The position numbers were made by a program, and so were the translations under genes. From Chthonomonas calidirosea (lineage in GTDB: Bacteria; Armatimonadota; Fimbriimonadia; Fimbriimonadales; Fimbriimonadaceae): a stretch of 37,119 bases of DNA. The notes under the pieces were generated by a model that did not search any database, had not been told where the DNA came from, and worked only from the letters and a program-made list of their open reading frames with translations. Of this stretch, positions 7,791 to 14,351 are shown in pieces (positions within the stretch are counted from its first letter, which is position 1; every line of letters starts with the position of its first letter). Location: positions 1-37,119 of the forward strand of contig CAMCWC010000022.1 in assembly GCA_945882415.1 (NCBI GenBank). Direction: 5' to 3'.

Positions 7791-9689
<1,899 letters not shown>

Positions 9690-9729: not shown

Positions 9730-9768
9730 AGTATACCAATCCCTGGATTTCAGGTTTCAATCCAGGGA
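9730..9768 (-). promoter_or_regulatory. putative dnaK promoter with overlapping inverted-repeat operator
   Basis: On the minus strand, TATACT (9735-9730) resembles a -10 box. TTGAAA (9760-9755) could be a -35, but the 19-nt spacing is long. A perfect inverted repeat TCCCTGGATT-N9-AATCCAGGGA spans 9740-9768, covering the candidate -35 and abutting the -10. The N9 geometry matches the CIRCE operator of HrcA (TTAGCACTC-N9-GAGTGCTAA), though the arm sequence is different. Alternatively it could act as a terminator for the upstream 81-aa gene, but no U-tract follows. It is the main feature of the 103-bp gap upstream of dnaK. Confidence 0.45.
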
Positions 9769-9783: not shown

Positions 9784-10029
9784 TTAGGCTTGGCCGAGGG
9801 AAACCCGGCGCTTGGATCCGAAAGGGGTAACGACCGATGGCACGTTTTCAGGAAGCGTTACGACATCGCCTCGGCGGACCAAGAATGAGTACTCGCCGAT
9901 GCTTACGAGCGCCTCTCCGGCCAATACTCGAACCATTGCGACTCCTCGCTTGAAGAACGTCTTGGGAACACTCCAACGGGTCGTTCCGGTCACTTCGATT
10001 ACTTTCTGCTCTCTCCTCAGCTCGCTCAT
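9784..10029 (-). CDS. hypothetical small protein, cupin-like
   Basis: Small 81-aa protein that I cannot assign. It starts MSELRREQKVIEVTG and is rich in beta-strand-prone, glycine-punctuated sequence. The stretch VRVLAGEALVSIGEYSFLV followed by RRGDVVTLPENVPSVV looks like half of a cupin barrel (GxALVxxG...V..GDVVxxPxxxPH-like), but it lacks the metal-binding histidines. No signal peptide, so probably cytoplasmic. It lies on the same strand as dnaK downstream (103 bp away) and about 67 bp downstream of the RAYT-like gene. The hairpin between it and dnaK may separate the transcripts. Coding likelihood is good from strand continuity; function unknown. Confidence 0.6.
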   Translation of the reverse strand: MSELRREQKVIEVTGTTRWSVPKTFFKRGVAMVRVLAGEALVSIGEYSFLVRRGDVVTLPENVPSVVTPFGSKRRVSLGQA

Positions 10030-10096: not shown

Positions 10097-10567
10097 TTAG
10101 CCGGCGTCTCGAACGTAAAGTCCGGAGTATTCATCGGGCTCTTCGCAGAGTTCGGACTTAATTGGACTCTCCAAAATGTTCGTCCAGAACTCTTCATACT
10201 CCGCTTCATCGCGCAGTATCCGGTCGTAGCTCTCTCGGTAGAACACGGGACGTTCTTCGCCGGACCGTTTGGTGATCTGCTTGTTAGCACGGTTTTTGGC
10301 TTTCTCCAGAACGTCGGAGAGTTCGTATGGCTCATCGTTAGGCCCGAACTTGACGCGGAAGATCAGCTCCGTTTGTTCCGGCAAGACGCAGATGATGTCT
10401 ATCTCGAGCTTCTTGTCGTCGGGTTTGCGCAATTCGGCCAGCAGCGTTTCGGCTTCCGGACCGGAGAGAGCGCGCCGGTGTTTGAAGGTGGCGTAGTAGG
10501 TCACGTTCTCGGCGCGCCAGTGCGGCAATCGGCCACGCCAGATCGTGAAGTTCTCCCACTTTGCCAT
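10097..10567 (-). CDS. RAYT/Y1-transposase-like protein lacking the HUH histidines
   Basis: 156-aa relative of REP-associated tyrosine transposases. The N-terminal RGRLPHWRAENVTYYATF and C-terminal YRESYDRILRDEAEYEEF with SPIKSELCEEPDEY match the RAYT scaffold (LPHW...TY..TF; ESYDRIIRD; NPVKAGL...Y). Where active members have MPNHVHLL, with the two metal-binding His of the HUH motif, this protein reads LPEQTELI, so the His positions are Gln65 and Glu67. The candidate catalytic Tyr114 (ESYDR) is kept. It is therefore predicted inactive as a nuclease or repurposed, perhaps as a DNA- or RNA-binding factor. The start is 8 bp after the glnB stop on the same strand, so it is probably cotranscribed. 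No flanking repeats of the REP type are seen. Homology is judged by eye. Confidence 0.7.
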   Translation of the reverse strand: MAKWENFTIWRGRLPHWRAENVTYYATFKHRRALSGPEAETLLAELRKPDDKKLEIDIICVLPEQTELIFRVKFGPNDEPYELSDVLEKAKNRANKQITKRSGEERPVFYRESYDRILRDEAEYEEFWTNILESPIKSELCEEPDEYSGLYVRDAG

Positions 10568-10575
10568 TTGCGTCC

Positions 10576-10917
10576 TTAGGTGAGGGCGGTGTCGCCACGC
10601 TCGCCGGTGCGGATACGGATGGCGTCTAGCACTTCGGTGACGAAGATCTTCCCGTCTCCGATTTCGCCAGTGTGAGTCGCTTTGATGATTGCGTCGATGG
10701 CGTCATCAAGCTGATCGTCGGGAACGACGACTTCGATCCTCATTTTCGGGAGGAGGTTCAGGGCATAGGTGCTTCCTCGATACTTGTCGGTTCGACCCTG
10801 TTGTCGACCGTAGCCACGAACTTGTTCACAACTCATTCCGCGAATTCCAACTTCTTCGAGTGAAGCTTTCACTTCCTCAAGTCGGTTCATCCGCACAAAC
10901 GCTTCGATGCGCTTCAC
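10576..10917 (-). CDS. glnB: P-II family nitrogen regulator
   Basis: Trimeric signalling protein that senses ATP/ADP and 2-oxoglutarate and controls nitrogen enzymes or transporters. 113 aa, GTG start, matching the family (about 112). It begins MKRIEAFVR; the T-loop is GRTDKYRGSTYALNLLPK with Tyr51, the uridylylation site of proteobacterial GlnB, and Ser49, the residue phosphorylated in cyanobacterial P-II. The B-loop region TGEIGDGKIFVTEV and C-loop IRTGERGDTAL complete the nucleotide site. glnB and glnK cannot be separated by sequence; without an adjacent amtB, GlnB is the default. A kinase gene diverges 78 bp upstream and the RAYT-like gene follows 8 bp downstream. Confidence 0.93.
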   Translation of the reverse strand: MKRIEAFVRMNRLEEVKASLEEVGIRGMSCEQVRGYGRQQGRTDKYRGSTYALNLLPKMRIEVVVPDDQLDDAIDAIIKATHTGEIGDGKIFVTEVLDAIRIRTGERGDTALT

Positions 10918-10995: not shown

Positions 10996-12264
10996 ATGAT
11001 GCCGGAGAGATTCGACTTCATGCGCCGACTTTGGACCAGCCCGTTTCTTGTTGCAATCTCGTCGGCTGGGCTCATGATCCTCGCAGGGTTTCTCTTCGTC
11101 TTTGGCCCCGGAAATCTAAGTGGCCGATGGATTGCCGTAGCGGCGGTTTCGATGGCTCTGGTGGCTGCCCTGCGTATTCGTGCTCTCGAGAGATCAGCCG
11201 AAACCGACCAAGGCCGACTGACTTCGCAGCTCGCTACTCTGGTCGAGCAAAACGATCGATATCGCTCCACGGTGGATGCCCTTGCCGATGGACTTGATGT
11301 GGCGTTATTCGTATGCGATTCAAAGGCGAACATCGAATACGCCAATCGGCGGGCAATTGCGTTTTTCCAAGCGGAGAGCTGTCGCGGGAAAAGCTTGCTC
11401 GCGGTAAGCCTCAACCCGGAGCTGGAGCAACTGGTGAAGTCAGCCGTGATCAACGAGTTGCCGCAATCCGCCGAACTCTCCTTCCGGCACCCGGTCGAGC
11501 GGATCGGCCAGGCAAAGGCGTGGCGCGCACCCGGGGACCAGGTCTTTGTGAGCGTTTACGAAATCACCGAGCTGCGCCGGCTCGAGCGGATTCGCCAAGA
11601 CTTCGTTGCCAACGTGTCTCACGAAATGCGGACTCCGATGACGGTAATCCGAAACATGGCGGAGACGATGTTAGACGGAGACGATGCTGTGCTTCGGGAT
11701 AAGTACCTCCCGAAGATCATCAGCGAAGTTGATCGCCTCTCAACCATCTCGCAAGACCTGTTGATCCTCAGTGCCGCCGAATCGAATCCGGTTCGAAAGC
11801 AGGACTGCGATATCGTGGATGTGCTTACGAACGTTATTTGGCAGCTCACCCCCAAGGCGGCTGACAAGGGACTCAAGATTGGCTATCGAGGACCTGAGGC
11901 GTTCATGATCGAAGCGAACCCGGCGCAGATGATCCAGGTAGCGCTGAACCTGATCGATAACGCGATCAATTACACGAGTGAGGGGCACATTTCGATCAAC
12001 GTGAAGGAGAACCCTGAAACCATCGAAATCTCGGTTCAAGACACCGGAATGGGCATCCCCAGCGAGCACTTGCCGAGGATTTTTGAGCGGTTCTATCGGG
12101 TGGATAAAGCGCGAAGTCGCGCTAGTGGGGGTACCGGGCTTGGCCTCAGCATCGTGAAGCACATTATTGAAGCGCACGGCGGAAAGCTGAGCGTCCAAAG
12201 CGCGCAGAACGAAGGGTCAACCTTCATTGTTGTCTTGCCAATTGGACACCCAAGCGTTTCCTAG
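10996..12264 (+). CDS. membrane sensor histidine kinase, PhoR/WalK type
   Basis: 422-aa membrane kinase. Two transmembrane helices (about 16-37 and 45-62) with almost no periplasmic loop are followed by a PAS domain (about 90-195: DGLDVALFVCDSKANIEYANRRA), a HisKA domain with His209 in VANVSHEMRTP, and HATPase_c (NLIDNAINYTSEG, DTGMGIP, FERFYRVDKARS, GGTGLGLSIVKHI). This layout matches PhoR and WalK kinases. No response regulator lies beside it, so it is an orphan here. pstB is 5 kb away, which hints at PhoR but does not prove it. ATG at 10996 chosen, with a second ATG one codon later. The stop TAG overlaps the stop of the convergent glycosidase within a CTAG. Confidence 0.93.
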   Translation: MMPERFDFMRRLWTSPFLVAISSAGLMILAGFLFVFGPGNLSGRWIAVAAVSMALVAALRIRALERSAETDQGRLTSQLATLVEQNDRYRSTVDALADGLDVALFVCDSKANIEYANRRAIAFFQAESCRGKSLLAVSLNPELEQLVKSAVINELPQSAELSFRHPVERIGQAKAWRAPGDQVFVSVYEITELRRLERIRQDFVANVSHEMRTPMTVIRNMAETMLDGDDAVLRDKYLPKIISEVDRLSTISQDLLILSAAESNPVRKQDCDIVDVLTNVIWQLTPKAADKGLKIGYRGPEAFMIEANPAQMIQVALNLIDNAINYTSEGHISINVKENPETIEISVQDTGMGIPSEHLPRIFERFYRVDKARSRASGGTGLGLSIVKHIIEAHGGKLSVQSAQNEGSTFIVVLPIGHPSVS

Positions 12265-13718
12265 TTTTCGATGGCGAGGTAAGCGGGCTCGGACATGTTT
12301 CCGCTTCGATCTACCGCGGCGACGGCGACGGCGTCCACTTTGAGATCCTGGCCGGCGGGGAGATCGAACCGATGTTCGCCCGTGGTTCCAGAGTACGGAA
12401 CGACGGTCTTTGTCCAGTTGCCGTTAATCCGTTGCCAAAGCGCCCAGAGAATCGGTGCCTCTCCATCTCCAGCGGTCCATTTCACTTCCCCGGTTTTGCT
12501 CGCTTCCGTGATCTTTGGCGCAGGCGGTGCTTGCGCGTCGAGCCATGGAGTTGCCGGTGGGATCGCATATTCTCGGTAGACCGATCCCCGAAGTGAGCTC
12601 GTGATGTTGTTCCAGTTTCTGGAGAACGCCTTCATGCTGAAGTGCACGTTGCCAGTCGCACCGGCGCCACGGGTGATGGCGATTTGTTGCTGAACCTCGG
12701 CGGGTTTCCAGTTCCCTTCTGCCGGATTGGTTCTGGAAGTGAAGTTTCCGGGCCAGATGTGACGGCCCTGGATGTTTTGCTCCAGCCAGTAGTTCAGGAG
12801 CACGGGATAGCTCTGCGGGGTTTGAGCTACTGGCCAGTACAACTGCGGTGTGAAGTAGTCACACCAGCCTTCTCGCAGCCACTTTTCAGCGTCGGCGTAC
12901 AGCTGAGCGTACTGATCGACCCCGGCTTTGATCCCTTCTGGAATCCCCGGGCGATAGATGCCGAACGGACTGATGCCAAATTTGACCAGGGGCTTCTCGC
13001 GCTTGATCAGTTTGTAAAGGTTTTGCACGAAGTCGTCAACGTTCTTTCTTCGCCAGTCCCCACGATCCAGCTTTCCGCCACGGGTCTGATACTTCGCGTA
13101 GCTCGGTCCATCTGGGAAGTCGACTCCTTTCTCGGGATACGGATAAAAGTAGTCATCAATGTGGATTCCGTCGACGTCGTACCGCTTGAGGATGTCTGCG
13201 ACGACGGCAAGAGATCGCTTTTGGACGTCTGGCTCGCCGGGATCCATCCAGAGATATTTCCCGTAGGATTTCACCAACTCCGGCCGGGTCTTTGAAATGT
13301 GACTGCCGTGCATCGGAGCTTTTTGGGCGGGATGGAATGCTCGGTATGGATTGAGCCAAACATGGAGTTCAAGACCGCGCTTCCGGGCTTCTTGGATGGC
13401 GAACTCAAGCGGGTCATACGCTGGACTCGGGGCTTTCCCTTGCCTACCCGTGAGGTACTCCGACCACGGTTCCAGCTTCGAATTGTAAAGCGCATCGGCA
13501 GATGGCCGAACTTGGAAGATCACGGCATTGAGGCGCAATTCGTGCGACCGGTCCATGATGGCGATGAGCTCTCGCTTCTGCTGCGCGGTCGTGAGGTCTC
13601 GCTTCGATGGCCAGTCGATGTTGTCCACCGTGGCGACCCAGACACCCCGAAACTCGCGTTGGAACGGCGGCAACTCCGGCTTTTGAGTTGCAATCACGAG
13701 CAGCGGAAGGAGGGGCAT
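12261..13718 (-). CDS. GHL10-type glycoside hydrolase (DUF187) with C-terminal FnIII-like domain
   Basis: Putative TIM-barrel glycosidase. The start at 13718 is chosen because the protein then opens with hydrophobic MPLLPLLVIA and goes straight into the family signature PPFQREFRGVWVATVDNIDWPS. Longer in-frame versions only add a charged, low-quality leader overlapping the divergent gene. This gives 485 aa. Conserved GHL10 stretches include VIFQVRPSADALY, LHVWLNPYRAF, VDGIHIDDYFYPYP (candidate acidic residues), KFGISPFGIYRPG and CDYFTPQLYWP. The last 90 residues (PPAPKITEAS to AVDRSGNMSEPAYL) look like an FnIII module. The leader is short and lacks a charged n-region, so export is uncertain. 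Substrates of this family are poorly known, with cell-wall or storage glycans suspected. Confidence 0.88.
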   Translation of the reverse strand: MPLLPLLVIATQKPELPPFQREFRGVWVATVDNIDWPSKRDLTTAQQKRELIAIMDRSHELRLNAVIFQVRPSADALYNSKLEPWSEYLTGRQGKAPSPAYDPLEFAIQEARKRGLELHVWLNPYRAFHPAQKAPMHGSHISKTRPELVKSYGKYLWMDPGEPDVQKRSLAVVADILKRYDVDGIHIDDYFYPYPEKGVDFPDGPSYAKYQTRGGKLDRGDWRRKNVDDFVQNLYKLIKREKPLVKFGISPFGIYRPGIPEGIKAGVDQYAQLYADAEKWLREGWCDYFTPQLYWPVAQTPQSYPVLLNYWLEQNIQGRHIWPGNFTSRTNPAEGNWKPAEVQQQIAITRGAGATGNVHFSMKAFSRNWNNITSSLRGSVYREYAIPPATPWLDAQAPPAPKITEASKTGEVKWTAGDGEAPILWALWQRINGNWTKTVVPYSGTTGEHRFDLPAGQDLKVDAVAVAAVDRSGNMSEPAYLAIEN

Positions 13719-13799
13719 GGTTGAGTCTATCCCGATGAATCTTTGGGCGTTTGTCCCGTGGACCGCATCGAACCTAGCCGAAACGCGGTATCTCTTGCC

Positions 13800-14351
13800 A
13801 TGCCCGAAGAATTGGAGACAAACGCCAAAAACGAACTGACCGCGAGCAGCGTGACCGCCACGCTGACGCAGGTGGTGCTCCCGATGGGCCTGGTTATCGA
13901 TGAGGTCACGTTCTCGGGCAACGCGATCACGGTGCAGATGAACCCGCTGGATATCCGGGCTCCGCATCCCGCCACGGTTGTTGCCACGGTAAAGCTCACG
14001 TCGCTTGACCGATACCTAGAGACCGACGCCCCGGGAGGGCTCAGGAATTTTCACTGCGAAGGCGAGGACGGTTGGCTCTACGTTAACGCAACCAAGAAGG
14101 TCATTTTTGAGTTGGCGGTCAAGGCAAAGTGCCGCGTGAGCATTCGCGATCAGAAGGAGCTTTGGGTGGACCTGGCGAGTGTGGAGGTCATGGGTGGGGC
14201 TTCGGTGACGAACCTCGTGCAGAGTCAGCTTGCGAATCTCAATCCCCTGTTTTCGGTCGCGGAACTGCCGATCGTGGCTCGCCTCACCCACGCTGAGGTC
14301 GCGACGGATCAGATCGTCATCCGGCTGGAAGTTGGACCTCCAAACGCCTGA
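13800..14351 (+). CDS. DUF2993/LmeA-like protein
   Basis: 183 aa from the ATG at 13800; TTG 13743 and GTG 13758 are possible longer starts. The alternating-strand pattern (VTATLTQVVLPMGLVIDEVTF, ITVQMNPLDIRAPHPATVVA, SVEVMGGASVTNLVQSQLAN) recalls DUF2993/LmeA, a family with a BPI/tubular lipid-binding-like fold. LmeA of mycobacteria binds phosphatidylinositides and acts in envelope mannan biogenesis, and cyanobacterial members are uncharacterised. No signal peptide is visible with this start, so it may face the cytoplasmic side of a membrane. It is divergent from the glycosidase by 81 bp and followed 23 bp later by tRNA-Leu. The assignment is by general resemblance. Confidence 0.65.
   Translation: MPEELETNAKNELTASSVTATLTQVVLPMGLVIDEVTFSGNAITVQMNPLDIRAPHPATVVATVKLTSLDRYLETDAPGGLRNFHCEGEDGWLYVNATKKVIFELAVKAKCRVSIRDQKELWVDLASVEVMGGASVTNLVQSQLANLNPLFSVAELPIVARLTHAEVATDQIVIRLEVGPPNA

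Follow-up and report, generated by a model that had tools for sequence, protein, structure and literature searches.

A homologue of the RAYT (TnpAREP) transposases that has lost its catalytic residues is carried, in exactly one copy and as a full-length open reading frame, by all 70 good genomes of the Fimbriimonadaceae (Armatimonadota), a good genome being one of 90% completeness or more and 5% contamination or less. The copy described here lies in a window of 37,119 nucleotides, the whole stretch of DNA analysed (Chthonomonas calidirosea, contig CAMCWC010000022.1). Three conclusions are well supported: that the protein has the RAYT fold, that the whole catalytic quartet has been lost, namely both HUH histidines, the nucleophile and the third metal ligand, and that the dead RAYT has been inherited vertically as a core gene of the family. 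We consider it reasonably probable that this homologue, its catalysis gone, was fixed as a nucleic-acid-binding core protein that is often, not obligatorily, co-expressed with P-II.

The locus

The gene occupies 10097..10567 on the minus strand (ATG at 10567, stop at 10097-10099) and encodes a protein of 156 amino acids. Directly upstream, on the same strand, is a P-II gene of the glnB/glnK family (10576..10917, GTG start; PF00543, 96.8 bits), with a gap of 8 bp between its stop codon (10576) and the start of the RAYT-like ORF. The ORF, this spacing and the motifs quoted in the original prediction for this DNA were all as described there. Beyond P-II, and divergently transcribed, lies a PAS-HisKA-HATPase histidine kinase (10996..12264, plus strand), a homologue of which is found upstream in 30 named loci; it is followed by a GHL10 glycosyl-hydrolase-like protein (12261..13967, minus strand; PF02638, 222.6 bits) that recurs as a neighbour in 21 named loci. 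Downstream, the recurrent neighbour is DnaK (Hsp70; 7791..9680, minus strand; PF00012), in 16 named loci, one deep-branching member among them.

The interval between the RAYT-like gene and dnaK holds, in the window and its closest relative only, a short cupin-like ORF (9784..10029, minus strand; weak Cupin_2 match). Between this ORF and dnaK there is a perfect 10-bp inverted repeat (9740..9768, unstranded) that is terminator-like by eye only; the terminator scan did not return it.

Profile and fold

If the protein is a RAYT homologue, as had been proposed, by what features can the kinship be recognized? Its sole family match is to NCBIfam NF047646 (REP_Tyr_transpos), which at 45.2 bits falls below the cut-off of 80. 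The same profile matches 43 of 55 orthologues, and the window protein has the best E-value of these. The other profile that had been suggested, Pfam Y1_Tnp (PF01797), gave nothing for the window protein and a single weak match (E 0.23) among the 55 orthologues.

An AlphaFold2 model built on the 55 orthologues (pLDDT 86, pTM 0.80; residues 1-17, the most conserved stretch, are modelled at pLDDT < 50) recovered the RAYT fold. Its top match in the PDB is 4ER8, the E. coli TnpAREP with a REP hairpin (Foldseek E 5.8e-7), and in VIA-align the same structure scores Z 14.4 over 137 residues. The runner-up, an IS608 transposase, reaches Z 10.9, the IS200/IS605 transposases about 10 and Thg1 proteins at most 9.7. 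We attribute the Thg1-like and ribosomal S6 matches to the common ferredoxin-like arrangement only. Searched against the PDB, the single sequence matched nothing but unrelated proteins (TFIIH p62), all of them weakly, and these matches were set aside. By profile, albeit below its cut-off, and by predicted fold, the kinship of the window protein to the RAYTs is thus supported, and the proposed homology is borne out.

Loss of catalysis

What has become of the active site? In a profile alignment to 4ER8, the two histidines of the LPEHMH motif (chain residues 59 and 61) align with Gln65 and Glu67 of the window protein. The original prediction had read the motif LPEQTELI as a replaced HUH site, and correctly so; the codons of Gln65-Thr66-Glu67, aligned with His-Met-His (chain residues 59-61), lie at 10367..10375 on the minus strand. 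It had further regarded Tyr114 as the catalytic tyrosine that was kept, and on this point the alignment disagrees. The catalytic tyrosine of E. coli TnpAREP is Tyr115, Y115F being a catalytic mutant (PMC8266576), and its third metal ligand is Asn119 (PMC6006769). Aligned to 4ER8 and to the relatives, Tyr115 becomes Asn130 (10178..10180) and Asn119 becomes Ser134 (10166..10168), both on the minus strand, and the Y---NP motif of class 2 (PMC6006769) reads Asn130---Ser134-Pro135. Tyr114 (10226..10228, minus strand), in ESYDRI, precedes the nucleophile column by 16 residues. It is a scaffold residue, Tyr or Phe in orthologues and relatives alike; of 19 aligned relatives, 18 of them HUH-intact, nine have Phe in its column. 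Because the Tyr115 and Asn119 columns hold Asn130 and Ser134, the catalytic loss is more complete than had been held.

The orthologues repeat this pattern. Sixty of the 61 that were aligned have none of the four catalytic residues and the remaining one has a single histidine, while all four are present in each of 18 HUH-intact RAYT relatives from other lineages. Taken column by column, the first HUH histidine is kept in 0/61 orthologues and the second in 1/61; the nucleophile is Tyr in 18/18 HUH-intact relatives and in 0/61 orthologues, and the third ligand is Asn in 18/18 and in 0/61, respectively.

The one remaining histidine, at the second HUH position, belongs to L142 and is possibly a relic. 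L142 and L159 are deep-branching, fast-evolving orthologues from 1.5-Mb reduced genomes that lack P-II (G047 and G110). Outside the clade, a RAYT-like paralogue (L239, at G007:C5) has Gln in place of the second HUH histidine (MPDHVQVV) and may have been inactivated independently.

A core gene of one bacterial family

Of 85 genomes of the Fimbriimonadaceae, 80 have the orthologue, and all five genomes without it are less than 90% complete. Since all 70 good genomes carry it, the protein is a trait of the family and not a product of local decay. The remainder of the order yielded only two far weaker matches, of 40.6 and 30.7 bits. HUH-less orthologues were sought outside the family, in the order and in the phylum: matches outside the clade score at most 99.8 bits, and 16 of the 17 examined have an intact HUH. 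The lone exception comes from within the family and has the second histidine alone changed.

On a tree made by a quick method, without bootstrap, the orthogroup forms one side of a branch with an SH-aLRT of 100. A single branch of this kind is consistent with one loss of catalysis. Across eight pairs of at least 88% protein identity, pairwise NG86 dN/dS ranges from 0.018 to 0.19; for the window protein and its nearest relative it is 0.028. The gene has the marks of a host gene, being single-copy, universal in good genomes, vertically inherited, under strong purifying selection and set in recurrent synteny. Together with its monophyly and the loss of the quartet in 60 of 61 orthologues, these observations strongly support the earlier view of a domesticated, nuclease-dead RAYT.

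Association with P-II

Is the protein also tied to nitrogen regulation, as was suggested from the neighbouring P-II gene? Of 66 P-II-bearing genomes, 42, spread over 17 genera, have a P-II gene on the same strand no more than 1.1 kb upstream, in some with intervening genes; these counts are not independent of each other. One extra linked case, beyond the 42, is at a contig end. Frequently only a few bases separate the two ORFs, and several genomes show an overlap of 1-4 bp between them. Junctions of this kind suggest that the two genes are transcribed together and their translation coupled. The linkage of HUH-less homologues to glnB is neither unique to one genome nor accompanied by decay. By its conservation, the adjacency is that expected of a P-II operon partner.

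Co-dependence was not observed, however. In 14 genomes no P-II was matched at E 1e-10, and all 14 have the RAYT-like gene. Two of the 14 (G060 and G026; loci L133 and L139) still have it beside the same histidine kinase and the GHL10 gene, with glnB missing. The two 1.5-Mb genomes without P-II also keep it, in one case with dnaK 124 bp downstream. In 24 further genomes the P-II gene is elsewhere, and the tree calls for 13 or more switches in the state of linkage. Since P-II-less genomes retain it, the RAYT-like gene outlives P-II; since it persists where P-II is not found, P-II is a frequent context for expression, not a requirement. The suggested tie to nitrogen regulation thus stands as a recurrent arrangement, at times with overlapping start and stop, and falls as a dependence, given the 14 genomes and the two syntenic places from which P-II is gone.

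These data bear on a different reading, in which the dead fold acts as a protein partner in P-II signalling, binding P-II itself or one of its targets and relaying nitrogen or energy status. It would account for the adjacency in 17 genera and for the overlapping ORFs. It also draws on several g30 genomes with P-II elsewhere (loci L084, L085, L099 and L124, none with an adjacent P-II), where, some 1.4-1.7 kb upstream of the orthologue, there is an ORF that looks by eye like glutamine synthetase. The persistence of the gene without P-II, in the same place or in a reduced genome, and the frequent switching of linkage make this reading unlikely in our judgement.

Retained and remodelled residues

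Which parts of the RAYT have been kept? Among columns that are near-invariant in the HUH-intact set, Pro15, His16, Trp17, Tyr24, Glu112, Ile117 and Arg119 are retained in 61/61 orthologues, and Lys91 and Asp115 in 60/61. Asn99, Gly106 and Trp109, likewise conserved in the HUH-intact set, are lost in the orthologues. In E. coli TnpAREP, residue 100 (Asp100) and Arg104 contact the GTAG foot of the REP (PMC8266576), and it is with these that Asp115 and Arg119 align in 4ER8. At the column of Gln95, another GTAG contact, most orthologues have Tyr. Because of this change, and of the conserved columns that were lost, the original REP specificity has probably not been kept. From the predicted fold and the retained contact residues, nucleic-acid binding is plausible; the conservation is just as compatible with a role in protein-protein contacts.

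The former HUH site has a conservation of its own. Thr66 is found in 56 of 60 orthologues and Glu67 in 50 of 60, while residue 65 is free; elsewhere Glu82 and Glu88 are clade-specific and near-invariant. On this pattern of conservation the old active site, with its Thr66-Glu67, is remodelled and not left to drift. Might it have been rebuilt into a new enzyme or a ligand pocket around Thr66-Glu67 and the clade-specific residues? The selective conservation of Thr66, Glu67, Glu82 and Glu88 speaks for such a pocket. However, beyond the RAYT fold there is no clear likeness to any ligand-binding or catalytic family, and the Thr-Glu pair may merely stand in structurally for the metal; we regard a new pocket as improbable.

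Active elements in the same genomes

Does the dead protein have REP-like repeats of its own? In about 0.84 Mb of the genome sampled, the outstanding repeat family was GTAG-CCAGGCATT-GAA-AATGCCTGG. The GTAG palindrome (GTAGCCAGGCATTGAAAATGCCTGG) occurs at 18 places genome-wide, at G000:C3:56252-57646 (L001) and also on contigs C4, C5, C9, C21 and C33. Five of the 18 flank an intact IS200-type Y1 transposase at G000:C3:56824. No GTAG-tagged repeat was found in the window contig; the inverted repeat of 10 bp there is unrelated. Among 20 genomes of the genus the palindrome was seen in two, that of the window and its closest relative (G014), which has several copies near two Y1_Tnp genes. Because the palindromes cluster round other, intact transposases, we rule them out as the REP population of the dead protein, and a hairpin target for the latter was not found in the 0.84 Mb. 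The palindrome is, on this evidence, the mark of a separate active element, a REP-like system in the Fimbriimonadaceae.

Could the dead protein then repress the active RAYTs or REP elements of its own genome, or compete with them? Dead transposases can be dominant inhibitors, and the genome of the window has both the GTAG-tagged palindromes and the intact IS200-type transposase. Against this, the palindrome is confined to two of the 20 genomes of the genus and lies away from the RAYT-like locus. Y1_Tnp genes are moreover patchy, with 0 to 26 copies, and were matched in 42 of 70 good genomes; the other 28 therefore keep the dead protein with no detectable Y1_Tnp, although Pfam may miss some RAYTs in this count. 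A role in restraining active elements seems to us quite improbable.

A surviving nuclease that uses other residues is compatible with the retained fold, and the original prediction had recognized that the HUH histidines might lie elsewhere in the protein. An HxH motif was sought throughout and found in none of the 61 orthologues, and the nucleophile column holds Ala, Glu, Ser, Gln, Lys or others; we give this reading very little weight. That the gene is a decaying transposase relic, for which the lost catalytic residues might speak, is refuted by purifying selection (dN/dS far below 1), and the ORF, of full length in each of the 70 good genomes, and the positions invariant throughout the family leave the idea a negligible chance.

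Proposed role

We return to the dead RAYT as a nucleic-acid-binding core protein. Catalysis would have been lost once, before the known Fimbriimonadaceae diverged, and the dead RAYT would then have become fixed in the core genome, in one copy and by vertical inheritance. To judge from its residues it could neither cut nor rejoin DNA. It may still recognise a structured single strand, the foot of a hairpin in ssDNA or RNA, by means of the retained contact residues and the highly conserved N-terminal arm, and could act as a binding regulator or a chaperone. Where glnB is upstream, the short or overlapping junctions would provide for co-transcription and coupled translation.

A more specific form of this proposal we offer only tentatively, as possible but less than probable: that the dead RAYT is a universal core regulator of the family with a rebuilt active site, co-expressed with P-II in most members that have P-II, and that its recognition of hairpins is perhaps coupled to nitrogen or energy sensing.

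Relation to known systems

RAYTs have hitherto been described as domesticated yet catalytically active. The main survey of the RAYT superfamily, in 2018, took in only sequences that have the HuH and Y motifs (PMC6006769), and the dead clade would for that reason have escaped it. We found no description of a HUH-less RAYT clade in the literature searched, a body that leaves most subscription journals outside its scope. The clade offers a natural separation of binding from cutting, the scaffold being kept throughout the family without the chemistry, and it makes testable what use there is for a RAYT scaffold unable to move DNA. Transposase homologues that have become core genes throughout a bacterial family are rare, and this is one of them.

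How does the clade compare with its nearest counterparts? With TnpAREP/RAYT (NF047646; 4ER8; class 2 of PMC6006769) it shares the fold, the length, the N-terminal LPHW...TYF and the ESYDRI-RD motifs, the residues aligned with the REP-foot contacts, the single copy and vertical inheritance. It differs in having neither HUH nor Y---NP, in scoring below the family cut-off, in that no REP-like repeats were found at the gene, and in being universal across a bacterial family. With the IS200/IS605 TnpA (PF01797) it has in common the ferredoxin-like HUH fold (Z about 10); unlike these enzymes it has no Pfam match and no HUH-Y---Q site, and it is not mobile. The domesticated REP-associated RAYTs (PMC8266576) are, like it, transposase homologues fixed as host genes, but they work on REPs with a HUH-Y site that is still active, whereas the dead clade has lost catalysis altogether. 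We conclude, from sequence and predicted fold, that the clade is RAYT-derived and RAYT-folded but lacks the catalytic features by which membership of the RAYTs is recognized.
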